Assembly (NCBI GenBank): GCA_037176725.1
Contig: JAZBRS010000074.1
Span: forward strand, 64,918,001-64,982,000
Length of the DNA stretch: 64,000 nucleotides
From: Posidonia oceanica
Lineage: Eukaryota > Streptophyta > Magnoliopsida > Alismatales > Posidoniaceae
Direction: 5' to 3'
The position numbers were made by a program, and so were the translations under genes. The notes under the pieces are model-generated. The model had not been told where the DNA came from. It saw only the letters and a program-made list of their open reading frames with translations, and did not search any database. Within the stretch, counting starts at the first letter, position 1. Each line of letters opens with the position of its first letter. Shown one piece after another: positions 1,284 through 46,654 of this stretch.

Positions 1284-1367
1284 GTTGGACGCTGTATTTT
1301 TAGCGTTCAACGTTGGATGGGTCAAACACCGCGGCTAATGTTGGACGGCAAGACAACTGCGTATAAC
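1284..1367. repeat. 28-bp palindromic repeat, cluster 1 (3 units)
   Basis: Three contiguous units at 1284-1311, 1312-1339 and 1340-1367. Each starts with a GTTGGACGC-like half-site and ends with its inverted form. The first unit has arms GTTGGACGCT and AGCGTTCAAC around an 8-bp centre. A TATA-like TATATTA lies at 1470-1476, about 100 bp to the right and upstream of antisense gene 1. Confidence 0.9.
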
Positions 1368-1565
1368 GTCGTGAGACAGGCTGCCTGTCTTTCCAGTTCG
1401 GGCACCACCGTTTTGGCAGTAAATCTCTGATTTTATTTGGATTTCCATTCCGATGAAGGCTCCATGGCCTATATTAGACCCCATCTTGGCATGGATCTTG
1501 TAGTTCAAACATCGATCTTCCTTTCTTTATTGATTTTTCACTTGCTAGGGATTGTGCTTCTCCTC

Positions 1566-2906
1566 ATGGATTTGAGTGATATCCCGCGCCATGCCTTCCA
1601 AGTGGCCGTCTTTTCCTCTTCTTCCGACATGGTGCAACTTCGGCTGGAGGCTATACCTAATCATTTGACGAACCTTTTGGTGCATGAGAAGGTTCTTCCC
1701 GTTTTCATCATTACCCCATACTCCCATTCTCGTATTTCTTTATCTCTGTTGATTTTTCTTACTTCATAGCCCCTATCCTCTGTCAACAACAACCGTGACT
1801 CGAAAGCCTATCAGTTGGACTGGGTTCAATAATTTTGCTCTTGGGCTTTGAAGAGGTATCGGGAATGCTTGGAGGAGGCTGATCTTTGTCAGGCCCTTCG
1901 CCAGTTGCGGCAGCCTGTTGACTGGAAGGTGATTTTCAACCTTTGCGGGCTACGGAATCCTTTGACTCACACGTTCTTTTCCTCTTCAGGGGAGTTGACC
2001 ATTCTTTTGGAGGAGGTGAGTGCCCTTTTAGGTACTCAACAGGCCAACCCGTCCATTTACTATAGGGATGCCTACCTTTTGCCAATCGGGGTGGTAGGCT
2101 CTTTTTCTCTCTTAAAGCGCATCTTCGGCTCTATTGTTGTGCCAGAGGACCTGGTGCTAGATGGCTGTATCAAACTCTCCTCCTTATGGAAATTTTTCTG
2201 GAAACAACGCGACAGCATCCGCTCTGAGGCTTCCTGCTTGGAATGTGTCTTTATTCTGATCGAGGGACTGGTACTCTTCCCAAATGAAGCTCTGACCATT
2301 AGCGCCTACCATGCTGAGCTCATTTGCATCTGCGTTCGCAATCCGGAGAAATGCTTGAGTCAGTCTGTTTTGGCTTTTACCATCCAGGGCTTATCCAGTG
2401 CCTGCCTCGGGGGACCATTCTTTGGCTCGCCTTTGCTAGTTCTGCGCTGGTTAGAGGAGCATTTTCTTCTGCCCGCCTTTGATGCTAGCCTTCCCTTGGA
2501 GGAGTACATTCACCGTTTATGTGCTTGTGAGGTCAAGCCCTAAATGGACTCCTTCAGTCCTCCCTCGTCTTTCAGGACAGTGTCTGACCCAGAGTACTTT
2601 CTAACGCTGATTGGGGTGACTGAGTTTGTGAGGTACAACCCTCAGCGATGCTTCTCGATGCTGGGTACTCCTCGAGCTATACCTCCCTTGCCTCGTTTCT
2701 CTGACATGATTCTCCCACGCTTGAGAGACACCCTCGAGGACATCATTCAGGTTTTCTATTAGGCTGGCACTTGGGACGGGAAGGGGCGAAACCGAGTCCT
2801 TTCTGCATGGGAGAACTCGAACGCAGATCGCGAAGCCATCTCTCTTGCTACTTATGATGCTTGGTATGAGGGCGTGCGGCCTAAGTTGTTCATTGAATTT
2901 CCTTGA
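1566..2906 (+). pseudogene. Antisense gene 1 of element A: plant-mobile-domain-like protein, broken
   Basis: The plus-strand frame from about 1848 to the TGA at 2904-2906 carries motifs typical of the aminotransferase-like plant mobile domain: NPLTHTFFSSSGELTILLEEVSALLG near the N-terminus, then a Cys/Leu-rich helical middle and GPFFGSPLLVLRWLEEHF. Two in-frame stops interrupt it, TAA at 2541-2543 and TAG at 2760-2762. A likely first exon begins at the ATG at 1566 (MDLSDIPRHAFQ) and ends near LLVHEK at about 1691. The intervening intron is inferred from the better-preserved third gene and its acceptor is unclear. An AATAAA lies at 2948-2953. The function of this domain in retrotransposons is unknown. 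It is related to the other two antisense genes only at motif level. Confidence 0.6.
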
Positions 2907-3042
2907 AAGAGACAGAAAATGTAGTTAGAAATGTATCATTTATCATCAATAAAATTTATTTCGTCTCTTTGTCTCTTTTAAATGAATTTCTATGAGTTGA
3001 ATGAAAGCATCAGAATTCAGAACACTTCCCTGAACTTAAAGT
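2907..3042. other. 3' flank of antisense gene 1
   Basis: A/T-rich spacer with AATAAA at 2948-2953, 42 bp beyond the stop codon, where a poly(A) signal is expected for the plus-strand gene. Nothing else is visible. Confidence 0.5.
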
Positions 3043-3189
3043 GCTGTACGCTGAAACTGGAGCGGCCAACGTTGTACGCTGGGAAACTAGTGGATAACGT
3101 TTTAACTCTCAAAACGTTGGACGGGCCATAGGGCGCGTATAACATTCCTTCTTCCCGATGTGTTGGACGCGGCAATTCACGTGGATAAC
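3043..3189. repeat. 28-bp palindromic repeat, cluster 2 (4 units)
   Basis: Units at 3043-3070, 3071-3098, 3116-3143 and 3162-3189, the middle ones separated by 17- and 18-bp remnants. Unit ends read CCAAC, ATAAC, ATAAC and ATAAC, and the next unit starts with GTT wherever two are contiguous, so the boundary itself is a palindrome centred on AACGTT. Confidence 0.9.
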
Positions 3190-3198
3190 GTTGAATGG

Positions 3199-3205
3199 TA
3201 TAAAA
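3199..3205 (+). promoter_or_regulatory. TATA box of antisense gene 2
   Basis: TATAAAA lies 9 bp after the last 28-bp unit of cluster 2 and about 110 bp before the first ATG of the gene. Sequence and spacing fit a plant Pol II core promoter on the plus strand. No transcription data are available. Confidence 0.6.
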
Positions 3206-3312
3206 CCCTCGTCTTACGCCACAGGTGGTCACCTACACCTCTTCTCTTCTTCTTCTCCAGCGCCAGAGAGTTCTCCGGCGATCTTTCTTCCTATTCCAGT
3301 GAGATCACTCCG

Positions 3313-6030
3313 ATGGAAAAGAGAATCTCCCACTTCTACACTCGGACAGCGAAGAGGGCTCAGACGAGGCCTTTGCCTTTCGACGAGCCTTCATTATAGA
3401 CGCTGGTAGCTGGCCCAGCTGCGGGGGAGACGGCGGCGAGGGCTGCGGAGGCCACCGGCGTTGCCGTGGCAGGCGGGGCTGTGCCTATGGAGGCCAGTTC
3501 TCCCACTGTGGGAGTGGTGGCCGAGGTTGCTGAAACGGAGGTGGCTTCTGGGGCAGCCGTGGAGGCGTGCTGGACTGCGGCGAAGACGGCGGCGGCTGGT
3601 GGTGACGTGGCAGGGGCCGAGGTGATGACCGGCAGTGATGCCGAAGCTGCGGGAGTGAAGACGAGGATTGCTGATGGTGGTACCGCGGAGGCCGAGGTGG
3701 CGGCTTGTGGTGACACCATGGAGGCTGAGGCGACGGCCAGTGGGGATGCCGTGGGGGCGGACTCTGGTTCCAGGGAGGCCGTAGAGACGACGGCAGAGGT
3801 AGACTCTAGTTCCAGCAGCTCTTTTAGCTACGAGGACTCAGAGGAGACGGTCTCGGAGACGAGGCCCGAGGTTGGCCTGGATGAGGCGGGGCCTACGGAG
3901 GTGCCAGAGGCAAGGCCAGTCGATCCTTTCATTGCGCAATTTGGTGAGGACGACGGTTGGTGGTGGAACATGGTCGACTTTGGTCGACAGGAGGCAGAGG
4001 GTGATGCGAGGGATCCCCCGGACTACTGGCGGGAGCAGATCCCTCGAGAGGAGGTGCAGGCATCGGGACCCCGTAGGGACACATCTCGATCGAAGTACGC
4101 CACTGCCACACTAGCTTCGAGGGGGCAGATAGACATCTTTTCATTTTTCCTTCATTTTATTCAATTATTTCATCTTGACTGATGATTCTCTTGCTTGTTT
4201 GCAGAGTCGAGCACCAGCCGTGACCCGTTGCTACTGGGGTCAGGTCCGCCAGTCCTACGGCTTGTTGGCTACTTTCCAGTAGGAGCACCTGAATCAGATG
4301 GGTTTTGGGCATTTCCTGTCCATCCCGGACTTTCCCCTCCGTCCGATGTTCTTGGAGGCTATCGTCGAGCGGTGGAACTTCTGCACGAGCTCGATTGTCA
4401 CGAGGGTGGGCGAGTTTGTCCTCTCCCTTGAGGACATGGTGCGGCTGACCGGTCTCCGGGTCACAGGCAGACCAGTGACAGGGTGGGTGCGCTCGGGCTA
4501 TTCAGCCTTGGCGCAGGAGCTTGTTGGACATCAGATAGCCATGAGCGGAGAGCAGCTTGTGGTGATCACTTCCGAGGTTCGCCGAGTTAGAGAGTTGGCA
4601 GAGACAGTAGCCAGACCGGGCGTGGAGGCCGACCAGCAGCTGCGGGCCTTCCTCCTAGTGCTGTTCGGGGAGGTGTTCTTTTCGCACTCCTCCTCGAAGC
4701 TCTCGGCGTGGTTCCTTCCTCTCTTGGCAGACTTGGAGCGCGTGGGAGAGTACGCCTGGGGTGCGGCCAGCTTGGCGCACCTATACTCTACCCTTTTCCC
4801 TTTTACTGACGGCAGTTCTCGCCAGCTAGGTAGGAACCTGCCGTTCCTTCAGGTAAAATCTGCATTTTTTTAAGCTTCCACTGGATATTATATTCTTCCT
4901 AAAAGCTTCCTTGTTTTGCATGCAAATGTGGGCGTGGGACCACTTCGCCTTTCTATGACCTGCCCCTCCTTCGGTTCCTCCTACCGGTGTCCCCTTTCCT
5001 GGGGGACTGTTTTGGGCCGCTGCTGAGTAGGCCCTCGAGCCTGCAGATGACAACCACTATGTCGGTCGTCTGCTTTTTGAGCTCCTTGTCCCGGCTCAGG
5101 TAACTTGCTTCTTTTAATTTCAGCTTCTATTTATTCATTTATGCTGCTTGCTGACATGTATTGCTCCCTTCAGGTGATTTGGCATCCATATGTTGAGGGA
5201 GAGCATGCGGATGACCCTGATAATGCCCGTGATCGAGCCATTTTCGACCGGGACGTATGGATCCACTACTGGAACCACTATCACTTCCAACAGATTGGCA
5301 GGGCGCTACAATAGTTGGGGCGTCAGCAAATTCAGCCTCTACCTCCTCCTCATCGAGTTTGGCAAGAGACACACGGTCGGGGCAGTCGTGCTCGTCATTG
5401 GGTGGACGTCTACGGTCCACAACTCTTGGACTGGGCCCGTCGCGGTTCTCCTGCTCCGACGGATGCCACAGAGGAGGATGAGGCGGTGTGGGCCGAGTGG
5501 ATAGACCGGGAGTTTTCCTCTTTGATGATCTTCCACCGATCCCAGTTCCTCAGGCACGGGAACCTTCCCTTGGGAGACACAGATGCTGGGGAGGCGGTGG
5601 TATCCCGTGCGGCTCTGCCGGGGGAGGTTCAATCTTACCGAGCCTAGCTGGAGATAGCGATGAGCTCCTGAATTTCATTTCTGTAGACTGTTAATTCAAT
5701 TTGGCTGACTTGCTTTCTTTCTTTTGCAGCTCAAGGTGGTAGATGAGCGGGCTCTAACATTTTGATTGCTTCTCTCCTCAGGGCACAGCGGGGGTTATCT
5801 CCCAGCTTGAGTTTGAGCTTGGGCATTACCGAAGGTTTGCCTTTACAGCAGGTGCCAAGCTCGGGGTGCCCGTTCCTTCTGTACCGAGTCATCGGTCGGG
5901 TAGCCACCACTCTCGGTCCATTTCCAGGGCTCCGTCGGGCGTTTCTGTTCGACAGTCGCCTCGTCTTCCTAGCGCTCCTTCTCCGGCTCCTACTTCAGCT
6001 CCCGAGGGTGAGGGAGAGAGTGCTCCTTAG
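3313..6030 (+). pseudogene. Antisense gene 2 of element A: multi-exon plant-mobile-domain-like protein, broken
   Basis: Exon 1 starts at ATG 3313 (MEKRISHFYTRTAKR) and encodes a long Ala/Glu/Ser-rich acidic segment to about 4090, with one TAG at 3397-3399. Exon 2 is 4205-4852, bounded by TTGTTTGCAG and CAG/GTAAAA. It holds the mobile-domain core: an ERWNFCTSS segment, then GEFVLSLEDMVRLTGLRVTG. Exon 3 is about 4926-5099 (WAWDHFAF, two stops) and ends CAG/GTAAC. Exon 4 starts at 5174 after CCCTTCAG and runs to about 5645 (VIWHPYVEGEHADD, then HYWNHYHFQQIG). Two more acceptor-like sites at 5729 and about 5780 precede a Ser/Pro-rich tail. Exon borders keep the frame, so it was once a spliced gene. 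Several stops (TAG, TGA) now break it. The donor of intron 1 is not resolved. Confidence 0.6.
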
Positions 6031-6510
6031 CTTCTGTACTTCAGGGGTATGCCCCGGTTACCTTGTAAAACGATTGTATATTTTGAAATGATATAGATTT
6101 CTGCACGCTCAGCAAACTTGTCAAATACTTCTTTTAAACAACCTTTCTCAAAGCTAAAATGAGCTCAAGCGACCAATATGGTGAAATAATGGCCCTTAAT
6201 CCAAATTAACTTGAAACCAGTGTACTCAAGTGAAATAGTATGTAAATGACATAGTTATAAGGAAAGATTTCACCTGGAAGCTTAAAAATTGAATTTTGAA
6301 GTCGTCGATGCCTTAATGAGCCATTTACTTGATGAAATGAGCAACCAGAGATTCTGACTGGCCCGGATGTCCAAAAAATATGAAACCAACGCTCACACGT
6401 GTATTTCAACTTAGTTAAACCTCTGGGGCGGGTAAAATAGGCTCATGCAACTCAATCACGGATTAGGGGGCAATCCAGCCAAGTTCAGTAACTTAAGTCA
6501 CTGATAAAAC
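6031..6510. other. Spacer with no gene
   Basis: A/T-rich non-coding sequence after antisense gene 2. No clean AATAAA and no repeat family other than the next 28-bp cluster are visible. Confidence 0.4.
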
Positions 6511-6642
6511 GTTATACACCTCATCTGGTGTGGCCAATGTTATCCGCTTCAATTTCTACGTCCAACACCGGGTAGCTGATCTAAATGTTATATGCTTCAA
6601 GTAGCGTGGCTAACGTTGGACGCACTCTATCTCGCGTACAAC
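6511..6642. repeat. 28-bp palindromic repeat, cluster 3 (4 units)
   Basis: Units at 6511-6538, 6539-6566, 6587-6614 and 6615-6642, with a 20-bp gap in the middle. The last unit has arms GTTGGACGC and GCGTACAAC. Upstream of antisense gene 3. Confidence 0.9.
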
Positions 6643-6753
6643 GAAGCGAGCCCAGAATCCTTTCTTTCCTTTCCTGTTCTTGGCTAATCTTCCGGAATGC
6701 TGCGAAATTTTCTCAATGCCCGTGTGTGGGATTTCCGATGGCCCTCTTGTGCT

Positions 6754-6760
6754 TATAAAA
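6754..6760 (+). promoter_or_regulatory. TATA box of antisense gene 3
   Basis: TATAAAA lies 111 bp after the end of cluster 3 and about 100 bp before the ATG at 6858, the spacing expected of a plus-strand Pol II promoter. Confidence 0.6.
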
Positions 6761-6857
6761 GCCTAGCCACCCCTTGAATTTTTATGCACACTTGCCCCTT
6801 TCCTCCCTACTGATTTCTTCTTGATTTATGCTTCTTCCTTTCCTCTCTTTTGCTCTC

Positions 6858-8203
6858 ATGGTTTCTAGTTCAATTCCCAACGTCTTCATGCACAACAAGA
6901 AGGGTGTTGCAAGACCTTTGGAAGAGATTGAAGGGCATATGATGTCCCTTATCAAAATGGGGAAGGTATGATCTTCTTCATTGGTCCTTTCACTCTCCTT
7001 TGTTCCTCATGCTTTCGAATTTCTTTGCAGGAAATCCTCAATTTTACCAAAACACCTTGCTTTGATAATGACTTCCCCTACTACTCCACTTGGCTGAAGG
7101 ACTTTGTGCTTTGGGCTCGAGAAAGGAAATCTGTTTTGGCCCGTACGTGCTTTGATGGACTTTTGGATTTATTGGGGGCAAACTTGGACTGGCCCCTGCT
7201 TCATGCCTCATGCGCCTTCTGGAGTCCTGAGACTCACACTTTCTTCTTTGGGGGTTGTGAGGCGACAATCCTAGTAGAGGATGTTCATGGCCTGCTTGGT
7301 GTGACTCAGATTGGAGCAGCCCAGCCAGATATTGACTTCCCATTGCCATACAGAACAGCAGATATGCAAACATTCGTAGACCGTATCTTCACCCTTCCGC
7401 CTACCTTCCCAGTAATTAGAGGTCGCAGGCTTAACTTGGCACATCTGTACTTCAGCTTCCGGCGGATTGAAGACTCTACCTCTCAGGATCAGCTGCTGGT
7501 GTGTCTGCATTTATTGATTGGAGGCCTCACTTTATTTGTCACCAAGGACTTCTCCTTGGATGTCTATCACACTGAGTTCTTGATAGGGCTTACTGAGCAT
7601 TTCTGGCGTTCTCCTTCAATCGCCATTCTTGCTGCTACATATCTCGGTCTGACCAGTGTTTCCACCGAAGGGGATTTTGTAGGCTCTCCTTTCCCTCTTT
7701 CTAGGTGGCTGTAGGTCCATTTCCCGAGGCTTGGGCCTGTGAAGACAGATTTGATTGAGGAAAGTGTTTGCTCTTTGTCCTCTGCCCCTATTAACATCTT
7801 TGCACCTTCCACGTCCCTTTATCATAAGCACTAGGCGCGAGGTTCTTCAGTTGAGTTGGAGTTGATAGGGCCCACCCACTTTTTGGTGTACAACTCCCAT
7901 TGTTGCTTCGAGATGGTGGGGCAGAAGAAAGGGGTGCCACCTCGGCTAAGCTTTATTCCTCGCATTCGGGTTCGGGAGCACAGTCTTCCATCTGATGCAG
8001 TAATGGTGTACTACATTCGGGCTCTTTGGTCGTCTTTGGACCGTCATGATGATTCAGAGGGGCCATCAGCTACTCCCTCGGCTTGCTGCCTACCATGGGA
8101 GGATGCGCACTGGAGGTGGTATTCAAAGCTACTGCCCAAACCCGAGGAGTGGGTAGAAGCGACGGGCATGCTGCGCAGGAAAAGGAAGAAGATGATTAGA
8201 TAG
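6858..8203 (+). pseudogene. Antisense gene 3 of element A: two-exon plant-mobile-domain-like protein, two stops
   Basis: Exon 1 is 6858-6965 (MVSSSIPNVFMHNKKG, ending KMGK). A 65-bp phase-0 intron (6966-7030) starts GTATGATC and ends TTTCTTTGCAG. Exon 2 runs from 7031 to the stop ending at 8203. The protein shows the mobile-domain signature FWSPETHTFFFGG followed by ATILVEDVHGLLGV, then a Leu-rich helical region and DFVGSPFPLSRWL. The C-terminus is basic (LRRKRKKMIR) and could act as a nuclear localisation signal. Two TAG codons interrupt exon 2, at 7712-7714 and 7832-7834. An AATAAA lies at 8253-8258, 50 bp after the stop. TATA box, clean intron and poly(A) signal together show an independent plus-strand transcription unit inside a minus-strand retrotransposon. 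The molecular role of the domain here is unknown. Confidence 0.7.
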
Positions 8204-8390
8204 GCAATTATTGTAATCTTTTATTTTTGGGGACCATGTATCTCTTCAAAGGAATAAATATATCTTTCATTTTTTCCATCTTTGTTCATGTGTTTTGGAC
8301 TGTTCTGAGTTTAGAAATACTCCCTAGTGGCTTTGATATTTGATCAAAGGCCCTTTGTCCAAATTCTGCAATTTAAGTCACAGTTAAAAT

Positions 8391-8517
8391 GTAAGACGCT
8401 TAAACTGGCACTTATAACGTAAGACGCGTGATAACAGGCATCCAATATCCCTCTGTTGGTCGTTATACGCTTCAGATACTGCGTCTAACGTTGGACGCTG
8501 GTATTTGCTCGTTTAAC
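8391..8517. repeat. 28-bp palindromic repeat, cluster 4 (4 units)
   Basis: Units at 8391-8418, 8419-8446, 8462-8489 and 8490-8517. This cluster sits between the 3' ends of two convergent genes (antisense gene 3 and integrase), so a purely promoter-proximal role does not explain it. Confidence 0.9.
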
Positions 8518-9896: not shown

Positions 9897-10790
9897 TCAA
9901 GGGTAGTACCTTTTAAGGTACAGTGCATTCCAGGGATATTCAAGCCTAGTGTCATCCTCTCTGGCCAAACAATAGGCATTGCCCGGATATGCCTCAACCA
10001 CCAAGTATGGTCCTTCCCAATTTGGTCTCAGTTTCCCATTCTTGCGAGGAAGGATTTCTTTAAGCACCCATTCACCAACATTGAATTTACGTTCAATTAC
10101 TTTCTTCTTATATGCTCTTGCAAGTCGTTCTTGGTAGAGCCGTGCATGCTCAGCTGCTTGCAACCGCTTCTCATCTAGCAAATCCAACTGTAGACTTAAT
10201 AATTGCCTCTTATCCTCGGTAGTTATCTCATCGTCGAGTTGTACCCTAGATGAGGGGACCATGACCTCAAATGAGACTACCGTCTCCATACCATAAGTAA
10301 GCACAAACGGAGTTTGGCCCGTAGGCATTCTTATGGAGGTTTGATAGGCCCATAAGGTATCAATTAGCTTATCTGTCCAGTCATGTCCCTTGGTTCCTCC
10401 TACCGTTTTCTTAAGGATTCGGATTAACGTTTTATTAGTAACTTCAGCTTGCCCATTACCCTAGGGGTAATATGGCGATGAATGATGCAATTCAATCTTA
10501 AACTTCTTACAGAGCTTTTTGAAGTCTTGGGATACGAAGATTGTGCCATTGTCTGCTACTAATTTCTTTGGGATCCCGAACCTTGAGAGGATATTTTTCC
10601 GTACGAACTTGCAAAGATTTGAAGCTTTGATTTCAATGAACGCTTCTGCTTTAGCCCATTTAGTGAAGTACTCAGTGGCCGTGAGGATGAACCTATTCTG
10701 CTTTTCGATGTCGAATGATCCCACGACATCAAATGCCCACATGGAGAAGGGCTACACCATTTGAGTCGGATTCAACTCTGATGCTGGTGC
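9897..10790 (-). pseudogene. Element A integrase, broken
   Basis: Minus-strand translation gives an integrase core: WAFDVVGSFD (first Asp), YFTKWAKAEAF, SRFGIPKKLVADNG (second Asp), HHSSPYYP and GNGQAE (Glu). It continues into the C-terminal part with MPTGQTPFVLTYGMETV, RKFNVGEWVLKEILP and NWEGPYLVVEAYPGNAY, ending NALYLKRYYP at 9897. The catalytic D, D, E are all present. A TAG replaces the usual Gln between YYP and GNGQAE, and another stop lies near 10757. The N-terminal zinc-binding part (10800-11110) is too degraded to delimit. This enzyme would insert the cDNA copy into chromosomes. Confidence 0.85.
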
Positions 10791-11116
10791 ACGTATTCTA
10801 TCTGCATGGATCTAGCACTGCTTGCACCTTCTCACTTTCTTTGCGCAATCTACCTCCATTGTAGGCCAGTAGTACTCTCTGCGCAGTATCATTTTTGCCA
10901 TGAATTGAGAGCTGATGTGTCCTCCACATACGCCTTCATGCATTTCTCCGATGATAACTTCAACCTCCTCATAATGACACAGTGCAGCTCTATTCCGCTG
11001 AAAGACCTTTTGAAAAGGATCCCGGCTCTCATGAAGTATCTTGTAGCCATCCTCCGAACTGCCTCTTTGTCTTGTGAAGTTGCGTAGTCGGGGAAAATCC
11101 CGTCTTGAATGTAGTT

Positions 11117-11828
11117 CTAGATGTCAAAGAACCATGGGTTCCCGTCATCCTCTATGTTGTAGCAAACTTCAAACGTGCCTACCCTTGATTCTCCAGCTTT
11201 CTGTCTAAGCTCCACGGCCCATGGCTCAGTTGAGTCAATGGCAGGCATCCCGTGTTGCTGAACCATTATTGTTTGCTCCCGGATATTGATGGGGAACTCG
11301 ATTGAGGAAGCCAGCGAAGCGAGAGCATCTGCTAGTAGGTTGTGACTCCGGAAGGTGTGGACATACACCACTTGCTGAAACCGCACCAATAGGAGGCGTG
11401 CAATGCCTTTGTATTCTTCTAGCCTTGGGTTGAGGGTTCTATACTTGTTCAGAATTTGTCTTAGAACCAATTGGGAGTCTCCGATGAGTTTCAACCGCTT
11501 TGTCCCTAGCTCCAGTGCTAGGCGTAATCCGAGGATCAAGGCCTCGTATTTTGCAACATTGTTGGTATTTGCGGTGAAGTTTAGCTATACAGCTCGAGAG
11601 AACTCCTTCTAGAGTGAGAAGTGCTACTCCGATGCCTGCCCCTTGTCTGTTGAGTGCTCCATCAAAGTAGAGAGTCCATTGTCGAATGGGAGACTTGGTA
11701 GCTTGTATTTCCAGTATTTCCTCATCAGGGAAGTCTGTTCGGACTGGTTGATAATCTTCTATTGGTAATTCCGCCAGGTGATCTGCAATGGCTTGCCCCT
11801 TGACCGCCTTCTGGGACACATATTGCAA
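11117..11828 (-). pseudogene. Element A second (archaeal-type) RNase H, frameshifted
   Basis: The frame from 11828 reads QYVSQKAVKGQAIADHLAEL (the usual linker), then RQWTLYFDGALNRQGAGIG, which carries the first catalytic Asp. The frame then shifts near 11540 and continues ALILGLRLALELGTKRLKLIGDSQLV (GDSQLV holds a further Asp) and NLLADALASLASS. The NNxAEYEA stretch reads NNVAKYEA, so the conserved acidic residue appears lost. A second RNase H between the RT-linked one and integrase is what places the element in the Tat lineage. Confidence 0.8.
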
Positions 11829-11852
11829 GTCAAATTCAGTAAGGAGGAGTTG

Positions 11853-12205
11853 TCACCTTGCCAATCTCCCAGAGAGGGCTGGCTTCTCGAACATATATTT
11901 GATTGGGTCCATCTTGGCGATGTAACAGACTTTATGGGCTAGGAAGTAGTGTCTCAACTTTTGAGATGCCCATACCAAGGCCAAGCAGTGCTTTTCTATG
12001 GCTGTATACTTCTCTTCATAACCCAGGAAAGTTCTACTCAGGTAATAGATGGCTTTTTCCTTCTTGCCATCCTCATCATGTTGAGCTAGCACTACCCCTA
12101 TTAATGATGCAGTGACTGCCACATAGAGTAGCAAAGGCTTCCCTGATATAGACGCTGACAAGACTGGGGATTCATGAGGTATGCTTTGAGTTCATCAAAA
12201 GCTTT
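11853..12205 (-). pseudogene. Element A RT-linked RNase H, degenerate
   Basis: Shows LLLYVAVTASLIGVVLAQHD, IYYLSRTFLGYEEKYTAIEKHC, LALVWASQKLRHYF and MDPIKYMFEKPALSGRLAR, the normal order for the connection/RNase H domain. The first catalytic Asp (usually in VTDTA or VSDSA) is replaced (VTASL). In Tat elements this domain is often inactive and the second RNase H is thought to compensate. It is out of frame with RT and ends in a TGA where Trp is expected. Confidence 0.8.
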
Positions 12206-13378
12206 CTAGCATTTCTCATCCCAGGTAAATTCCCTCCCTCCTTTCAGTAACTTATAAAACGGCTTACATTGATCTGCATGCTGTGAGATGAACTGTAAAC
12301 GGCCGATAAGTCCTCTGAGTTCCTTTATGTTTCGGGGCGGAGGCATCTGTGCTATTGCTCTAGCCTTCTGCGGGTCCACCTCGATTCCTCTTTTGCTGAT
12401 GATGAAGCCTAGTAGCTTCCCAGCAGTTACCCCAAACACGCATTTCCTTAGGTTCATTTTTAGCTGATATTGCCTTGCTCTGCTCAGCACTCTTCTTAGC
12501 GCCTCAAAGTGTGCTTCCCTTGTTCTTGATTTGACCAAGATATCGTCAACATACACTTCCATACAATCGTGCATCATGTCATGGAAGATGGCCATCATCG
12601 CTCTCTGATATGTTGCGCCGGCGTTCTTGAGACCGAATGTCATGACTACATAGCAATATGTCCCCCATGGCGTGATGAACGACGTCTTCTCTTGGTCCTC
12701 CTCTACTAGCTTAATCTGATTGTAACCGGAGAAGCCGTCCATGAAAGATAGCATCTCAAATCCTGCTGTATTGTCCACTAGCAAGTCAATATGTGGCAAA
12801 GGGAAGTCGTCTTTGGGATAGGCGGCGTTGAGGTTGCGATAGTCAATGCAAACCCGAACCTTCCCGTCCTTTTTGGTCACTGGTACTATATTTGAGACCC
12901 AACTGGGGTACACAACCACCCTGATGAATTTCGCTTTATGGAGCTTGTCAATTTCTTCTTTGACTTTGAGGGCGAGTTCCGGCCTTAGTCGCCTTAACTT
13001 CTGCTTGACGGGTTTGGTTCCAGAGTTTAGTGGAAGCAGGTGTTCCACTAGGGCTGATTGTAGACCAAGCATATCCTCGTACTTGAAGGCCAGTACATCC
13101 ACAAATTCTTTCAAGATTTGGACCATTTCCTCCTGCTCTTTTGGACTCAGACTTGCACTTATGAGTATTGGTTTTGGCTCTTCGATGGTTCCCAGGTTGA
13201 CCTCCACGGTCTCTTCTTCAGCTGCCTTGGTTTGCTCATCATATTTGTCCATGAGGTGCTTAAGGAGGTTTGAGTCGGCCTCTTGATCTTCTTCCTCATC
13301 ACTGCAGTTAACCAGCTCATATGCCTCCATTCCTGCACACTTCCCAAACCGGTCAAATTCTTCTACTAGGAAGACCAT
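12206..13378 (-). pseudogene. Element A reverse transcriptase, open for 390 codons
   Basis: The best-preserved part of A. It begins in an acidic linker (DEEEDQEADSN), then ILKEFVDVLAFKYEDMLGL, KPVKQKLRRLRPE, NIVPVTKKDGKVRVCIDYRNLN, DDFPLPHIDLLVDNTAG, SFMDGFSGYNQI, TPWGTYCYVVMTFGLKNAGATYQRAM and the catalytic EVYVDDILVKS, then LGFIISKRGIEVDP and the thumb. All RT fingerprint motifs are present and there is no stop within this interval. Upstream, the same frame stays open to 13702 apart from one TAG at 13397-13399, which sits in LP*ELATAN where CAG is likely. It copies element RNA into DNA. Frame changes on both sides make the polyprotein non-functional as it stands. Confidence 0.9.
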
Positions 13379-13628
13379 GTTAGCAGTAGCCAGCTCCTAA
13401 GGCAATGCCTCCGTGTATTGACACACGTGCACAGTTTTGGAAGCGGTGGTCGAAGTTGACCGCGAGCTGCTAGAACTAACATGGTGATCCTCTCCCTTAT
13501 TGAAAACAGAAAGTAAATTACTTTTATTTCTAGGAAATGAAAACAATGTAGAATTAAACAAAGTTTTATTTACAGCATCTAGGGGGATGCCCCTAGAGTT
13601 ACCTCCATCAGTAGAGGTAGGAGCCTTT

Positions 13629-14372
13629 CTAGGCAGGCTCATCATGGTCGACGTTCCCATCATCTTTGAGAAGCTCATGGTCGGCCCCTGGATCGGGGTC
13701 AACTTCAGGTCTTTGAGGCTGCAGACCTTTAGAGAGATCAGTCGTGAGGCGGCGGACCCTATCTACGAGTTGTTGTGACTTGCATAGAGTTTGCCCTAGC
13801 CTTTGCTCCAAAGAGGAAGAGATGTCCGGAGTTGGAGGAGGCGGAGGCTTGGAAGCAGCGATGCCGAAAGAAGAGGGAGAAGAAGAAAGAGGTGGCCGAT
13901 CCGGAGGTTCGGGGGCTGGTGCGCCTAATAGTGGTGGCGATGATGTTGCAGTCTGACCTTTGTGAGGCTCTGCTGGCAACTCTTCTGCAGTCTGACCTTC
14001 GTAAGGCTCTGCTGTCAATTCCCTTGCAGTCTGACCTTCGTGAGGCTCTGCTGGCAATTCAAGTGTTTGGAATAAGCCGGAAATGTTTACGTTGGTTGTG
14101 TCCTTTGCACTTTGGAGAGTGTGTTTGGTTGATTGTGCCAAAATAATATTTCCTAAGGGGGATGAATTCGGGTTGAAGATCCCTATGCTGGTAAAATGTC
14201 CTTGTAGATTCCACTGTAATGGTCGTCCGTCGGAGAACTGGTCGAAACCGAGTCCTCCCCTTCCTTCTCTGTCACAGGCCGTTACTGGCTCCTTCATTCC
14301 CTTTCCTACTTGGCCTAAGCCCTGGCCTTCCTTGTAGCCAATTCTCCTCATGATCTCCCATCCCACATTCAT
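13629..14372 (-). pseudogene. Element A G-patch domain and Pro-rich linker
   Basis: Starts MNVGWEIMRRIGYKEGQGLGQVGKGMKEPV, a clear G-patch (regular Gly in GYKEGQGLG), followed by a linker with three imperfect repeats of about 14 residues around PAEPHEGQTA, then Pro-rich sequence and a coiled RQRxLGQ-like segment. It shares the frame of gag and protease. It ends at 13629, 74 nt past the point (13702) where the RT frame opens, so the two frames overlap. G-patches bind RNA or helicases and are frequent between PR and RT in this clade. Confidence 0.75.
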
Positions 14373-14429
14373 GGAGGGTTTTTTGCTTTTTGAGGGTTCC
14401 TTCTTCTTGTGAAATAGCCTAGGCCTGGC

Positions 14430-15944
14430 CTACTTGTCTCTTAGCTTGACCATAGATACTACGTTCTTGCCCTTTTCGACGTGGGTCGGCTTTTCTCGCA
14501 CACTGAACTGGTGTGGCAGGTATATCACATTTGCCTCTGCTTCTTGGCCTGGTATGTCCCCTGCTATCGTGATGATTTTCCCATCGTGAGGGAATTTCAG
14601 GCATTGGTGCCGAGGAGATGATACTCCTTTTAAACTGTCCAGCCATTGTCTCCCTAGGATGATCTGATATAGGACATTGATGTCTATGACGATTAGTTGG
14701 GTTAGAACCTGAGCTGGTCCTATCCCTATCTTTGTGGTCCACTTGCCGTGTGCTTTGCTTTTGCTGTCATCATACCCGACAATCGTCATATCAATGGGGG
14801 TTAAGGAAGCCTCATTTACGCCCAAGGCTCGTATTGTATTTAACGAGCAAATGTTCATTGATGCACCAGTATCTATGAGCACTTCAGAAACTAAGTGATT
14901 GTTTATAGAAATGGTTACATTCAAGGGTGCTTTTCTCCTCTCTATTGGTGCCAACTCGCTATCAGCAAAGGTAATGATAGACTCTACAAAGGCCGCTGTA
15001 GCTATAACATGGAGTTCCTCTGCTGGCATATCTGGGGCAACTTGGGCCTTTTCTAGCACTTCTTGTAGAATTTTCCGATGTTGATTTGAGCTGTTTATGA
15101 GGTCATAGATCGAGATCTTGGCCTGCGTCTTCTTTAATTGCTCTAGGATGTCATATTCCACCGACCCGGGTCCTACTTCAGGTCTAACCGGCCTTGTTTG
15201 CTCTGTTGGTGGTATGATTTGGTTTGACAGCCTCCCCCCTCTAGTGATGGGCGCAGCAGCCTCATTTCCTTTGTACGGGTCGTTGGATGCTCCTTTCTTG
15301 AGCGGCCAGGGGAAGATGGACTCCCTCCGTATAGGTCCGCCAAGCTCTAGTGGCTTTGTGGCCCTAGCTTGCTGCTCTGTTGGCACTCGGAAGATTGGAG
15401 ATGACGGAGTAGTAGTGCTCCGGAATATTGAAGTGTTGAGGGCTGGCAATTGACTTGATGGTGGCCTAGCTGCTCTGAAGATTGGGGAGACTGGTGGCGA
15501 CAGCGGCTTGGGATCCCACAACAGTGATTTTCTCCACGGCAGACGTTGTGGCTCCTCCTCTTCCCGAAGGGTTGCAATTTTTGGCTCGGGCATCTTGAAT
15601 GTGCATAGAATCCCCGGTCGATTAGCTAGAATGCTGACGACCGCTCCTTGGTATTTGAATTTTAGCATTTGATGAACTAAAGATGCTACGGCCCCGACCT
15701 CTGCTAGCCAAGACCTCCCTAGGATGAGTGGCTCCAGGACTTCCTCCTTCATAATGATCACCGAAGTAATACTGGTCAAAGGACCGACTGTGATTTCGAT
15801 GGGCATTATCCCTAGTGCCAATTTCTCCTTCTGATCAAACCCGGTGCACATAAAGGGAGTTCTATCTAGCTCACCTTCATTTAGCCCTAAGCTTCGGAGT
15901 GTGGAGAGAGAACTGAGGCTTCGGCTCGCTCCAGTGTCAACCAA
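14430..15944 (-). pseudogene. Element A protease region with two retropepsin-like domains
   Basis: Two aspartic protease modules lie in one open frame. The first begins VLVDTGASRSLSSLSTLRSLGL and has PLTSITSVIIMKEEVLEPLILGRSWL. The second begins SEVLIDTGASMNICSLNTIRALGV and has GPAQVLTQLIVIDINVLYQIILGRQWL followed by HQCLKFPHDGKIITIAGD. Both keep the D-T-G-A-S catalytic motif and the downstream hydrophobic-Leu-Gly-Arg element. About 200 residues of Pro/Ser-rich linker separate them. A TAA lies just upstream of the first (about 15951). Retropepsins act as dimers of single domains; a tandem pair could form one covalent enzyme. The frame ends with TAG at 14430-14432 in DK*ARPR. Confidence 0.8.
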
Positions 15945-16256
15945 TACTCCTTACAGCGCATGGTCATTGATGCCTACTGTGATGACAAGCGGCAGCTCTT
16001 GCTTATATGGGGGTGGAAGCTCCGCAACTTTGAAGACTATATTTTCTCGTTCAAATCGCTAATTGGCTTTTTGAACTTGGCTTTCTTCCTTCATATCCTC
16101 TTATGGTCCCTCCACTACTGCTGTGAGGTTGAACTGGCTAAGGAGATCTTTCACTGTTGGCTCCTTGTCTGCCTCGCTGTCCCAATCATCATCTGAGATT
16201 ATTCCCGAATGTTCAGCTTGGCTGTCCCAGTCTTCTTCTGGTATGACATAGTTGTC

Positions 16257-18263
16257 CTAGTCTTTTGATGTTAGCGGATTAGGGAGCTGTTCATCCTGGA
16301 ATGCCATAACTTGGTGCTTGGGGAGAGGGTTGCTGTAGACCTGTTGAGACGTCCCTGTCTGCTTTCTCTGTTTGGCTCTTTTCACCAGGACATCCCATTC
16401 AAACACATCTGCCTCTACCATGTCATAGACTATGTCCCTGAAAGTCCAACAGTCATTGATGTTGTGACCATGTACCCTATGGAACGGGCAGTATTTGCTC
16501 TGGTCACAGTTTGGCAATTCAGGCCTAGTTGGCGGGAGTTCGATTGCTTTTGCATCCTCTAGCTCTATGAACATATTTGCTAGTGTGATCGGTAAAGGAG
16601 GGTAATGGTCTCTTCTTCCCTTTTTGCTTGGCAATGGAGGGGGAACATTATGATAACCGCCCCCGTTCCCAGTGTTGTTGGGGGGATTTCTATTGTTGGC
16701 CTAGCCATTTTGATTGCCCCTAGTCCATTGCTGCTGGGGAGCATTCCACATAGGGCGGATTTGTTGCTGAGGGGGAGGGTTATTCCATGCCTACTGTTGC
16801 TGAGGAGGGCGGCTCCATGCTTGCTGTTGCTGAGGAGGAGGGCGGCTCCATGCTTGCTGTTGCTGAGGAGGAGGGTGGCTCCATGCTTGCTGTTGCTGAG
16901 GAGGAGGGTGGCTCCAAGTTTGCTGTTGCTGAGGAGGAGGGTGACTCCAGGTTGGCTGTTGTGAAGCTAGTATAGCCCTTTGTTCGAATGGCCTAGGTGC
17001 GGAGCCCATCTTGTTGACGACTCCGGTCACGCCCTCTACTACCTATGTTTTCCGGCTCTTCTTTGGCTCCTCCATGAATTCATGCAGATTTTCTTTAACG
17101 GTGGCCGCCACTTCATATAAGGCCGTCACATTGGGACAGTAGGCATGTATGAGCCCCTTCTTCATCGGTCTAGTGGTGTTTGCAATGAGGGTCTGGACCA
17201 CCTATCTCTCCAAACTGGTCAGTCCTGATCTGGCCGCCATTTCCTGCCATCTGTTGGCGAATGTCACTCAGCTTTCACCTTGCTTCATGACCTCCTTGCT
17301 TAGGTCGTGGAAGGTTGGCTTGGGGTCTATCTTGTGCTGGTATTTTGTGAGGAAGCTATCTCTGATTTTATCAAAGCTGCTGAGGTCTTCCTTGGAGAGA
17401 GTGAGAAACCAATCCATGGGCTCTCCTTCAAGTGAGTAGAAGAACAGGTGTACAACAAGCCCCAAATCATGGAAGTAGGGGGCTGACTCCATTTGGAACC
17501 GCACTAGGTGGCTGAGCGGGTTAGTGGTTCCGTTGAACTTGGGAGTCTTCAGGTACTTGAAGCTCGGAGGTAATCTGAACGGGGGAAACTGGCTCATGTC
17601 AAAGTTTGCCGGAGCCTAGGTATGTACCCCTAATGCGCTGAGCATTTTTCTCATCTCATCCAAATTTGCTATCCTGGCTGATGGGGTCGGGACATGTGAG
17701 TTGAAGGACTGATGGTTCTGCTGCTGATGAAGGTAGCTGTTGCAGAAGTGTTGAGGTACGACCTGCTCGTATCATGGGGGAAATGCCTGATGGTGGTGAT
17801 GATCTGGCCGAGGCTGATTTCCTAACGTAGGTGGTTGGAGATGATGTCTTGGATAGACTCCTTCCTTGTACTCGCCATGTGGCATGTAATTTTATTCCTG
17901 AATCAAGGGGTTGGCCCTTGAGTTATAAGCTCCGTTGAGCACTGTACCATGACCTAGGTGGTTTGTGTTCGGCGGTGGGTTGCCATTTTGTCCCTGGTAT
18001 AGATCTTCAGTGGTATGGTCCGCAACTGGCCTTCGTTGTCCTTCATCGAGGTGGGGTGGCTACTGGAGGTTGTTCTGACATGGCCCCATAGGGGTTGATG
18101 CCTCTTCGTTTAAGAACTGGTACATGACTTTGTACTGGATCGAGTCTGGATCTAAGGCTTCTCTAGTGATTGGATGGTAGATTGTGGGCTCCTCTCCCGA
18201 GGTACTTACTAAGTCTGACCTCTCTCTTTCTGGCTGTTCAGCTTCAAGGATTTGGTTCATCAT
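16257..18263 (-). pseudogene. Element A gag, broken by many stops
   Basis: The likely start is Met-Met at 18263. The capsid-like core is at 17597-17268: FPPFRLPPSFKYLKTPKFNG, TNPLSHLVRFQMESAPYFHD, LEGEPMDWFLTLSKEDLSSFDKIRDSFLTKYQ. Next come a Pro/Gln repeat (16791-17030) and a zinc-knuckle-like YCPFHRVHGHNINDCWTFRD near 16480. The pieces 18263, 17597, 16634 and the protease all share one frame, so this was one gag-pro ORF. At least four stops sit where Gln fits (LQ*PPH, HT*APAN, ER*VVQ, KT*VVEG). A TGA and TAA also occur. Gag packages the genomic RNA. Confidence 0.75.
16798..16965 (-). repeat. 33-bp coding repeat in gag (Pro/Gln-rich)
   Basis: About five units of 33 bp, each encoding SHPPPQQQQAW on the minus strand. 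Period divisible by three keeps the frame. Low-complexity Gln/Pro tracts are common downstream of the capsid domain. Confidence 0.85.
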
Positions 18264-18298
18264 TGTGGTAGCTTTTGAGATGGAATTGGCTTCAGGGT

Positions 18299-18355
18299 GT
18301 AATACGCCTCAGAATGCGGCATATAACGTTGGACGTAGTAAACTGCGCGTTCAAC
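18299..18355. repeat. 28-bp palindromic repeat, cluster 5 (2 units)
   Basis: A 29-bp unit at 18299-18327 and a 28-bp unit at 18328-18355 ending GCGTTCAAC. It lies immediately upstream of the gag start on the minus strand. Confidence 0.85.
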
Positions 18356-18716
18356 GACCCCAGTTGTATTTCCTCTTGCCTTTTCTTTTCTTCTCAGCTT
18401 TTCTCTCTTTTTTTTGCTTTTCTGTTTTTTTGCTTTTCTGATTTTTTTGCTTTTCTAATTTTTTGCTTTTCTGATTTTTTCTCTTTTGCTCTTTTGCTTT
18501 TTTCTTCTTTTTTTTTCTTTTTTTGTATAAATGAAGGATTACAAGTGCTTGCAACGGAAAAGAAATTACAAACTTTGTGATCTAACACAAGTCCCTAGAA
18601 AGTAAATACTGAAAGATAAAACTACTACTGTCTTGCTTATGGTTATTTTCAATGTTTTACCCTGCAATTAATTCACCACAGAAAGGCTAGAAAATAAACA
18701 ACCACACAGAAAATAC
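18356..18716. other. Leader with T-rich (plus) tract
   Basis: 18361-18525 is almost pure pyrimidine on the plus strand, with repeats of about 17 bp around TTTTTGCTTTTCTG. On the sense (minus) strand it is a purine tract. The rest is A/T-rich with no coding sign. Confidence 0.6.
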
Positions 18717-18772
18717 GTTAGACGCGGAAACTACGGCGCACAACGTTAGACACAGAGATTCCAGCGGCTAAC
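18717..18772. repeat. 28-bp palindromic repeat, cluster 6 (2 units)
   Basis: Units 18717-18744 and 18745-18772, both starting GTTAGAC and ending CACAAC or GCTAAC, in the leader of element A. Confidence 0.9.
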
Positions 18773-19473
18773 GTCCTGTTTCAGAGAACTGCATAGAAAC
18801 ACTTTCAAACAGTGATTTAAGGTTTTAATTTCTGTTTTTGCTTTGAGATTAGTGTTTTAAACCTGCTATAGCTCTCTGGGTTCCTTAAGGCTTAGGTATG
18901 GCTTTTCTTTTCAGGGATTTCTATGGATCCTCACAAAATTAGTAAATATTTTTTGGTACTACCTTCTACCTCAACTCCTGAGGATGCTAGGGGGAGCCCG
19001 AATACACTTAGGTCCCTACCCCGTAGAGGTAGAGCCCAGTGTACTCGGGATTGATCGGGTCACTCACGTATCCACACACCAAGCACAATCAAACCACTAA
19101 AAGGGGAGGGAGGAATACAAGTCAAAGCTTGAGGTTCTAATTATCTTTCAACAAAAGCCAAGGAAGAAGAAGGGCCCCTTGTGAAAGATAATGACAATAC
19201 AAGTACCTTTCCTAAGCCCTTTGCAACAGAGGTGCTTGGGACTTAGACGGTTACTTATATAACTCAAGAAACAACACAAACAATTAGTTCCCAATGAGAG
19301 CCATGCAAGTCATATAAAAAGATTCGATTTTTATTTTTTTTTGCAAAGCACCTAAAGAAACTGAAGTTCTAGTCCCTACGGCAAAGCCGATCACCTCACA
19401 CCTCAGTCCTTGGGCCAGTTATGAAAAGAAAACTAAGAGAAAATTTAAAACAGAAGGTCTCTGTTCAGTAATC
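18773..19473. other. Leader of element A with a strong hairpin
   Basis: Non-coding leader. 18997-19049 can fold into a hairpin with arms CCCGAATACACT and AGTGTACTCGGG (11 of 12 positions pair), in the leader between PBS and gag where packaging or dimerisation signals are usual. No other feature seen. Confidence 0.45.
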
Positions 19474-19557
19474 GTTAGATGCGGATATTGGGGCGTCCAA
19501 TGTTAGACGCAAGGAATGGAATGTCTAATGTTAGACACGCCAGATCACGCGTACAAC
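19474..19557. repeat. 28-bp palindromic repeat, cluster 7 (3 units)
   Basis: Three contiguous units at 19474-19501, 19502-19529 and 19530-19557. The last has arms GTTAGACAC and GCGTACAAC. Confidence 0.9.
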
Positions 19558-19831
19558 ATACTGATAGAGTTTTTTTTTCAGAAAAACAGTGGCTTTTAAA
19601 AACCACCTCCACGCCCGAGAATCCAGAGAGAAGGGGGAGGTGATTTCAGTTATTCAGACGTAGAAAAAAACAGGAAGGGTCACGGTGCCTCAAAACACTA
19701 CGAGGAATTTCACCGCTACCTTAAAACTTATGAAAAATTAAGAAAAAACTAAAACTAAAACTAAGAATGTCAATAATGAAGGAGGAAGAAGAAAGAAAGG
19801 GCTTACTCACCTTGCACGGGGGCACTTTTAG

Positions 19832-19851
19832 CCATCCCACCGTGATCGCCA
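19832..19851 (-). other. Primer-binding site of element A
   Basis: On the minus strand TGGCGATCACGGTGGGATGG starts 3 bp inside the LTR end. The TGGCGA start is typical of Tat/Ogre primer sites, attributed in the literature to a tRNA-Arg. The tRNA was not checked. Confidence 0.65.
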
Positions 19852-20580
19852 GACTGTGGATATGGGGTTTTGGAGGAGAAGAGGCTTGTTCTTTTGGTTC
19901 TATTTGCTCTTTCTCGGGGTCCCCTTTTTGTATACAACTCCGTCACTCCACAGGTGATGGAATTGGTGTGATCACCACTCTCGGTTTGCTTTCACTAGCC
20001 CTCGAGATGCTTTGGGGAGATGTGATATGGTTGCGGGTTCAGCTACCTTGGAACAACGCCAGCGTTGCCCAAGGGTACCCGTGCTTGGTGAGCTTCTTCT
20101 TCTTTCTTCTTTCTCGTATGACAAATGTTAGCAAAACAAAAAATAATGCAAAGATGAATCAATACGTGTAGTAACTTATCCAGAATAAATAGAAAAGAAA
20201 ATAGAGAAACATAATGAATTACGTACCCGAGGGGTTTGATCCCCCCGGTTGCAACTAATAAAGATGTATGCTTAGCTACAACAATATATGAACTCAAAAT
20301 AAAATGCTTGATTATGCTATGGAATTAAACATGTGATATCAGAAAAGAAAAGAAAACAATAAAATAGAGTCCCCTTTATCTATGCACAGAGTGCAAAATA
20401 CGTTGACATGATGCCAACAACGACAAAGGGACACTCAAGCTTTTCGAAGACTTTCCGCCTTTCAAAATCTCTCTTCACTCTTTCAATTCTCGAGGACCTC
20501 ACTTCTCTAAAATCTTTTAATCTCAAGAGAGCATGTGAGTTCCAAAAATCCGACCATCAACCCTATAGGGGTACCCCTTC

Positions 20581-20587
20581 TTTTATA
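20581..20587 (-). promoter_or_regulatory. TATA box of the element A LTR
   Basis: TATAAAA on the minus strand, within a GC-moderate context, 65 bp downstream of cluster 8. It would set the start of the genomic RNA near 20550. Confidence 0.6.
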
Positions 20588-20651
20588 GAAGCAAAGGAGG
20601 AACAAACAAGGACACAAATGCCAAGTCAGCAGAATTTCCTGTTTCAGAAGT

Positions 20652-20707
20652 GTTATACGCTGGAAAACCAGCATGTAACGTTATAAGCGAGAGTCCCAGC
20701 GTATAAC
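20652..20707. repeat. 28-bp palindromic repeat, cluster 8 (2 units, LTR U3)
   Basis: Units 20652-20679 and 20680-20707. In the first, GTTATACGCTGG and CCAGCATGTAAC pair at 10 of 12 positions around an AAAA loop. Confidence 0.9.
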
Positions 20708-20880
20708 GACCTCCGAGGCATAACTGCTAGGATAAAGGAAGATTCCCCAATTAAGGAGTCATTAAGTGTGTTTAAACTCAGCTTTGATAGCTTTGACCGG
20801 TCAACAGGTTCCAAAGAAGGCAAAAAACGATTTTTGAATTTGGCCAAATAAGGAAAGCTTTGGGCTGACTGGGTTGCCAC

Positions 20881-20964
20881 GTTGGACGCTGGAAAACCAG
20901 TGGCCAATGTTAGCTGCTGGAGAACCAACGGCCAACGTTGTACGCTGAGAAGCCGGCATACAAC
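20881..20964. repeat. 28-bp palindromic repeat, cluster 9 (3 units, LTR U3)
   Basis: Contiguous units 20881-20908, 20909-20936 and 20937-20964. Their centres (GCTGGAAAACCAG and GCTGGAGAACCAA) are also palindromic. Confidence 0.9.
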
Positions 20965-21176
20965 ACCCTCAGTCAGTTCAATTTTCAAATTTGGTCAAGA
21001 CATGAAGAACACTCAAGTTGCCGACACTTGGAGCTTAGATAAGGATAACATTTTGGACTTAAGAGAAAACATTTGGCTCGAGTGAGACATTCTGGATTGG
21101 GCAGAGGGCTTCTAAGAATGACCTAATGCAAGAGACTATACTAACATGAAGGGAGTGCCAAAACGGGGTATCTACA

Positions 21177-44650: not shown

Positions 44651-44751
44651 TTGCTTAGCTGAATGTGCTTGAATTTTGTGGTCTGATTGCTAGCTGTAGC
44701 TTTTGAACTACTTTATCAACTTTATATGCACATCTGCTTCTCTGTTAGCCA

Positions 44752-46650: not shown

Positions 46651-46654
46651 CCCT

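Follow-up and report, generated by a model that had tools for sequence, protein, structure and literature searches.

Clustered 28-bp palindromic units in a Tat-type retrotransposon of Posidonia oceanica, candidate sites for a dimeric DNA-binding protein

What are short palindromic repeats doing in the non-coding parts of a retrotransposon? The question is raised by a Tat-lineage Ty3/gypsy element of Posidonia oceanica located at one end of a 64,000-nucleotide stretch of contig JAZBRS010000074.1 (assembly GCA_037176725.1, positions 64,918,001 to 64,982,000 of the forward strand), from here on referred to as the window. Besides gag-pol and a 5' long terminal repeat (LTR), the element carries three antisense PMD genes and nine clusters of a 28-base-pair (bp) unit, GTTRKACGC-N10-GCGKMYAAC. 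We consider it probable that these units are bipartite sites for a dimeric protein, most likely the PMD proteins encoded by the element itself, which would act like VANC proteins and keep the element family open.

Units of fixed geometry in nine clusters

A pattern scan of the window at up to 3 mismatches identified 26 units of 28 bp, all within 1-21176. Together with a sole 29-bp unit at 18299 (2 mismatches) this gives 27 units in nine clusters, in agreement with an earlier note made from the letters of this DNA. That note had found none beyond 21176, and 21177-64000 indeed contains no unit at up to 4 mismatches with 28-bp spacing. In 200 dinucleotide-preserving shuffles of 1-21176, matches at up to 3 mismatches averaged 0.075 and never exceeded 1. 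When unit lengths from 18 to 49 were scanned across the 21176 bases at up to 3 mismatches, length 28 gave 26 matches and every other length at most 2; a stray 29-bp match with 3 mismatches is located inside pol at 15282. Seeds defined by an exact left half only were followed by a right half (up to 3 mismatches) at +19 in 11 of 11 cases, and seeds with at most 1 mismatch by a right half at up to 4 mismatches in 25 of 30. All 26 units score at least 13.5 against a half-site matrix from which each cluster was left out in turn. With the full matrix, units score 16.8-28.2, while the best other place in the 64 kb, at 3190, reaches 10.4 and overlaps the TATA box of PMD gene 2.

Of the 17 neighbouring pairs inside clusters, 13 abut, the other 4 being separated by 15-20 bp. 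Identity is equal within and between clusters, both for half-sites (0.73/0.71) and for centres (0.34/0.34). Half-site columns of the window copy hold 1.35 bits and centre columns 0.35 bits, a contrast that is partly built in because units were picked by their half-sites. The centre, variable according to the earlier note, shares little between units but is not featureless: its four middle bases are A or T in 83 of 104 cells, compared with 64 of 156 cells in the remaining six columns of the centre. Operators with a bending centre likewise have an A/T-rich middle. At the CpG positions of the half-sites, 16 of 18 deviations are TG or CA, a pattern consistent with methylated CpG decaying. The R/K letters of left halves are more similar inside clusters (p 0.017), with no counterpart in right halves (p 0.54).

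Spacer and joint geometry across the genome

The 2.96-gigabase host genome was scanned for forward matches to the exact pattern with spacers of 8-12 bp. The pattern is nearly self-complementary, and forward and reverse counts largely cover identical sites. A total of 151,245 exact forward matches were found, and the motif can thus not be regarded as that of one retrotransposon, as had been proposed. Spacers of 10 bp account for 40,805 matches and spacers of 11 bp for 110,142, with 298 for 8, 9 and 12 bp together; a reversed-pattern control gave 0 for each spacer search. These matches are not independent because copies share descent. Centres vary widely among copies while the length of the spacer stays fixed.

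A search for joints between units with gaps of 0-12 returned 67,414 matches versus 6 for the control, and the joint is 18 bp long, corresponding to gap 0, in all of the approximately 100 matches listed. Among fetched loci (L015-L087, up to 2 mismatches, lengths 18-41) the unit-length spectrum contains 178 units of 28 bp, 54 of 29 bp, 8 of 35 bp and one each of 21 and 22 bp. Half-site centres are 19-20 bp apart inside a unit, and across a joint the distance is 9 bp, corresponding to about 1.8-1.9 and 0.9 helical turns, respectively. As these spacings are near whole turns, the half-sites lie on roughly one face of the DNA.

Half-sites change slowly outside CpG contexts

For comparison between copies, 40 candidates were scored out of 4,800 first-look candidates and the 29 best-scoring others were used, of which 22 were usable for the cluster at 6511 and 27 for the cluster at 8391. 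With CG, TG and CA contexts excluded, copies differ pairwise by 1.9% in half-sites, 7.5% in centres and 4.2% in flanks at 6511, and by 1.6%, 8.8% and 6.2%, respectively, at 8391. Divergence in half-sites is thus about 4-5.5 times lower than in centres and 2-4 times lower than in flanks. In six more distant copies, each counted once under the same filter, 21/310 half-site, 37/202 centre and 549/5031 flank cells differ (half-sites versus centre p 9e-5, versus flank p 0.022, with cells taken as independent). The slower change of half-sites, which the earlier note had named as a check, is therefore observed under this filter. Combined with the rigid spacer, the equal identity within and between clusters and the lack of covariation between arms, it supports that note's preference for selection on a bipartite site over plain copying.

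Clusters lie outside gene spans

None of the nine clusters falls inside a gene span, a result equalled by 2 of 20,000 random placements, using spans drawn by us. Cluster 1 (1284..1367) consists of three abutting 28-bp units and is located upstream of antisense PMD gene 1. The four units of cluster 2 (3043..3189), an abutting pair followed by two singles after 17- and 18-bp gaps, end 9 bases before the TATA box of PMD gene 2 at 3199. In cluster 3 (6511..6642), two abutting pairs make up four units, the last ending 111 bases ahead of the PMD gene 3 TATA box at 6754; cluster 4 (8391..8517) has the same arrangement and occupies the gap between the convergent 3' ends of PMD gene 3 and pol. Immediately upstream of gag, cluster 5 (18299..18355) combines the 29-bp unit at 18299 with a 28-bp unit at 18328, and clusters 6 (18717..18772, two abutting units) and 7 (19474..19557, three abutting units) are found in the 5' untranslated region. 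The remaining two are part of U3: cluster 8 (20652..20707, two abutting units) is upstream of the LTR TATA box at 20587 on the minus strand by 64 bases, and cluster 9 (20881..20964, three abutting units) has its start 229 bases away from that of cluster 8.

Three of the six TATAAA[AGT] matches in 1-21400 sit 9, 111 and 64 bases downstream of a cluster, belonging to PMD gene 2, PMD gene 3 and the LTR, respectively. No such match exists between cluster 1 and PMD gene 1. Unit placement is wider than promoters, since the cluster at 8391 is flanked by convergent 3' ends and three others are found between the LTR and gag. It does not extend to every non-coding gap, as had been claimed: R-U5, 8520-9900 and an array at 59-1200 have no units.

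Unit length follows element families

The first 20 loci retrieved with the motif all come from the initial 0.8 Mb of contig C1; they represent 12 non-overlapping places and do not form a random sample. One place (L025-L027) was left out as it is inside L067. Of the 11 remaining, 4 resemble the window element, 6 resemble only the second element of the window or L065-L067, and L019 resembles neither; L028-L030 lie near L067 and may be part of one insertion. The earlier note had counted genome-wide spread without a link to the family as evidence against its reading. The spread is clearly there, but on this small sample the link holds as well, with 10 of 11 places resembling the element or related sequences.

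The two unit lengths are distributed unevenly. E1-like sequences, comprising the window and 35 loci, contain 169 units of 28 bp and 2 of 29 bp, while ten E3-like loci contain 51 of 29 bp and 17 of 28 bp. L065-L067 bear mainly 29-bp units. L066 combines an LTR resembling that of the window element with a 5' region similar to the one in the window's second element. L067:4270-5714 holds seven unit pairs with a repeat of 224-239 bp and spacers of 167-182 bp, which is close to nucleosome size. Similarity among these spacers slightly exceeds that of shuffled ones (0.471 versus 0.399, standard deviation 0.013), hinting at an old duplication.

The host element and its antisense PMD genes

The element is a Tat-lineage Ty3/gypsy retrotransposon, having an additional RNase H between reverse transcriptase (RT)/RNase H and the integrase region. 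Its 5' LTR (19855..21176, minus strand) begins TGTAGATACC at 21176; the inner end was placed where LTR alignments of other loci stop (19854-19856), and the 3' LTR is beyond the window edge. Gag-pol (9900..18262, minus strand, ends by our reading) encodes, on the same strand, a protease (14433-15950), an RT (12209-13396), an RNase H (RT_RNaseH, 11856-12191) and a second RNase-H-like domain (RVT_3, 11120-11584), all over the Pfam cut-off, as well as a capsid-like match (17271-17615) and an integrase C-terminal match (9900-10460) below it. The zinc-binding part of the integrase is assigned to 10695-10970 (minus strand) through a tblastx match to the corresponding part of the window's second element. 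The order of protease, RT, RNase H and second RNase H is as described for Ogre and Retand (PMC6317226). With three PMD genes on the opposite strand, one of them over the Pfam cut-off, the element probably belongs to Ogre.

All three antisense genes are on the plus strand, with ends by our reading. PMD gene 1 (1466..2925) has a weak PMD match (0.006, below cut-off). PMD gene 2 (3313..6057), with several exons by eye, matches PMD at 4283-4870 with an E-value of 3.6e-28, and PMD gene 3 (6858..8205) with 3.6e-7, below the Pfam cut-off. Genes 1 and 3 are paralogues (33% over 211 amino acids). Metagenome proteins include 5, 39 and 5 relatives of genes 1, 2 and 3, respectively. Gene 3 changes more slowly at codon positions 1-2: in the 24 indel-free copies among 29, codon positions 1/2/3 of exon 7031-7711 differ by 1.8/2.2/3.8% with CG, TG and CA contexts excluded and by 4.5/3.9/5.6% unfiltered. 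The exon is free of stops in 10 of these 24. Modelling of the PMD exon gave a poor structure (mean pLDDT 45.2, pTM 0.27), and no sequence relative of it was found in the PDB at E-values up to 1. In viral contigs, PMD and RT queries gave no relative, and of 14 places fitting a stricter form of the unit pattern none was clustered at up to 3 mismatches.

Further repeats were observed in the window. Two tandem arrays with periods of about 34 and 38 bp are found at 59-1200, in the element's 3' region near the window edge, and a 405-bp repeat at 55547-56683 stands beside a 264-bp inverted repeat with arms 91% complementary and zero spacer. The second Tat-type element carries a 3' array (46650-47471) of at least 16 short hairpins, GATRRG-N7-CYYATC, the arms of which covary (AAG/CTT, AGG/CCT, GGG/CCT). 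This array looks like RNA structure.

Candidate readers and rival explanations

We hypothesize that a sequence-specific protein binds as a dimer to the two inverted 9-bp half-sites GTTRKACGC, with a spacer of 10 or 11 bp between them whose A/T-rich core probably bends. Zero-gap joints would let neighbouring dimers touch. The units are located upstream of the three antisense PMD genes, in U3 and the 5' untranslated region of gag-pol and at the 3' border of pol and PMD. Most likely, one or more of the element's PMD proteins would bind these sites and thereby maintain the element family in a transcribable state, as VANC does for VANDAL; a feedback loop would arise from their binding ahead of the PMD genes themselves.

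The proposal of an element-encoded, VANC-like reader builds on the occurrence of PMD in Ogre, on the VANC precedent and on a link between PMD and DUF1985. PMD is found in 57% of Ogre elements according to PMC6317226. VANC proteins are described as binding a 9-base motif that occurs in clusters outside the coding parts of VANDAL elements, with loss of methylation as the result (PMC5735166, PMC10398659), and DUF1985 is named as a VANC domain (PMC5735166), alongside DUF287. Collinear DUF1985 matches were detected in 12 of 35 PMD relatives (best 3e-4), including window gene 2, and a further comparison within this 35-protein set gave a DUF1985 match in 9 of 10 members; no DUF287 was among the Pfam matches listed for the relatives. 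The precedent, offered in the earlier note as a partial one, is strengthened by these weak matches below the cut-off. The same weak link is common to PMD proteins of retrotransposons and of a MULE DNA transposon: at L071:1501-3554 a MULE transposase domain (3.4e-10) adjoins a PMD frame matching DUF1985 (0.0014). L071 is one locus tested among 19 of the 20 best PMD loci of the genome that share a two-exon PMD by match range; the twentieth is classed as a host-type gene on account of its one long frame. The 19 are not independent because 11 sit in one array on contig C62. At about 0.37-1.86 Mb of C62, several stretches show PMD matches at intervals of ~25.5 kb, suggestive of tandem amplification of a PMD-MULE segment.

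A more specific form of the proposal is plausible but tentative. In this form, an antisense-encoded distant relative of the VANC domain would read a rigid palindromic lattice in the promoters and gaps of the element as the retrotransposon counterpart of VANC, about one site pair per nucleosome would keep the array of one family open, and coevolution of the protein with its 28- or 29-bp site form would have divided the elements into families under separate control, which now hold more than 150,000 exact sites in a single genome.

A number of observations weigh against binding by PMD proteins or against selection on the units. All DUF1985 matches are below the Pfam cut-off and the 35 PMD proteins are related to each other. 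No units occur within 1.5 kb of the 20 best PMD loci, and the second element of the window, with a sense-strand open reading frame at 44749-45954 matching PMD (1.1e-17) and DUF7745 (4.1e-13), has no 28- or 29-bp units. A search with the window proteins detected no coding part of the 29-bp family within 28 kb around L066. Among 40 random 64-kb sequences, best matrix scores averaged 10.6 and one reached 18.0, above the two weakest units (16.8 and 17.6). An unsupervised self-palindrome spectrum failed to single out the 10-bp spacer, its gap-9 excess being mostly A/T-rich noise, and the genome-wide joint search, limited to gaps of 0-12, excludes the 15-20-bp class to which 4 of 17 window neighbours belong. 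The copies compared were the best-scoring and are thus near relatives. Their half-sites, when unfiltered, differ by 4.9%, faster than flanks (3.8%), with centres at 6.9%, and unfiltered distant copies (half 65/582, centre 59/322, flank 817/7089) have half-sites about equal to flanks. Unfiltered half-sites fail to beat flanks because their CpGs decay; constraint is visible only with the CpG filter, which covers only the non-CpG columns of half-sites. Finally, the order is reversed in the LTR of L065, where 1/50 centre and 8/90 half-site cells differ.

Some of these points would suit sites for a host transcription factor that were captured as a promoter element, with the PMD genes acting otherwise. 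Clusters lie close to three TATA boxes, PMD loci and a PMD-bearing element without units exist, and we infer rather than observe the role of PMD as binder. We nevertheless regard a host factor as unlikely, given the cluster between convergent 3' ends, the three between LTR and gag, and the 10 of 11 sampled places within the window element's group. In addition, unit length tracks families (169 of 171 E1-like units have 28 bp, 51 of 68 E3-like units 29 bp), as would be predicted for a reader that changes along with the element. The binder could also be an element-encoded repressor limiting copy number or repressing the PMD genes in a feedback loop. An operator 9 bases from the TATA box of gene 2 could block transcription, and MAIN and MAIL1 are reported as needed for transposon silencing (PMC7156037). 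Yet the motif is extremely numerous, and sites away from TATA boxes (8391, 18299-19557) suit chromatin opening better, making repression improbable.

Explanations without a binding protein fare worse. Functionless tandem or minisatellite copying of a 28-bp unit would explain the exact abutment of 13 of 17 neighbours, the slight likeness of L067 spacers and the similarity of left-half R/K letters inside clusters. It would not account for identity being the same within and between clusters in half-sites and centres alike, for half-sites differing less than centres and flanks once CpG is filtered, or for spacers being almost exclusively 10 and 11, and we consider it very improbable. Inverted arms, and clusters between LTR and gag that are presumably transcribed, would also be compatible with RNA or DNA hairpins serving in RNA stability, packaging, as a small-RNA source or as cruciforms. 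However, the arms of one unit match no better than arms from different units (permutation p 0.75 and 0.70), while the array of the second element visibly covaries, and clusters 2, 3, 8 and 9 are upstream of TATA boxes. Because the arms do not covary, we consider hairpins very improbable as well. Binding by a dimeric protein, most likely PMD, is the explanation carried forward here.

Comparison with known systems

The role of antisense genes in the Tat lineage is treated as an open question in passages of PMC7264820 and PMC11963269, the authors of which suspect a regulatory one. With a site family that joins antisense promoters to the LTR promoter, a single protein and a single 28-bp probe are enough for a direct test of this role. 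Should PMD proteins be the readers, element-encoded anti-silencing would reach beyond DNA transposons into one of the most abundant groups of plant retrotransposons, with a bearing on the origin of the host silencing factors MAIN and MAIL1 from the same protein family.

Among related elements, the antisense gene of Retand is described as TRP28 (PMC11963269), gene23 of Grande is reported to have its own promoter (PMC7264820), and PMD-A clades are those of Gypsy elements (PMC5418596). For Ogre, Retand and Grande, the portions of the literature covered mention no site family linking antisense and LTR promoters, unlike the element described here. Titles, abstract beginnings and passages contained no report of such palindromic sites, and no text joining DUF1985 and 'mobile domain' was found; the one literature match to unit strings was a 12-mer in a bacterial paper. 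In tea, 175 phased small-RNA loci are reported at PMD genes (PMC10673657), and by analogy hosts may target PMD transcripts by small RNAs.

The host PMD proteins MAIN and MAIL1 are needed for transposon silencing and for expression of some genes (PMC7156037), and a 'DOWN' promoter motif has been linked to genes needing them (PMC7156037, PMC5418596). Unlike the PMD genes discussed here these are host genes, and the passages concerned report no direct binding of the motif. TnpA of En/Spm (CACTA) is, as proposed here, an element-encoded DNA-binding protein with clustered repeats able to form palindromes, but CACTA sites are described as subterminal and as serving excision and suppression (PMC2613891), whereas the present units occupy internal gaps and LTRs of a retrotransposon. 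Membership in CACTA was rejected, as no transposase was among the Pfam matches of the element proteins scanned.

The closest comparison is with VANC and the VANDAL elements of Arabidopsis. VANDALs are MULE DNA transposons with a VANA transposase, while the present element is Ty3/gypsy, with protease, RT and RNase H identified by Pfam. The VANDAL motif has 9 bases and the present site is palindromic and bipartite with a fixed spacer, known from sequence alone. VANDAL motifs spread by tandem repeats; here identity is equal within and between clusters, yet most neighbouring units (13 of 17) are contiguous and the spacers of L067 show a slight likeness. The two systems share accessory proteins encoded by the element, related families carrying different forms of the motif, and a non-coding location, VANDAL motifs being found in non-coding parts and 0 of 9 clusters in the gene spans of the Posidonia element.

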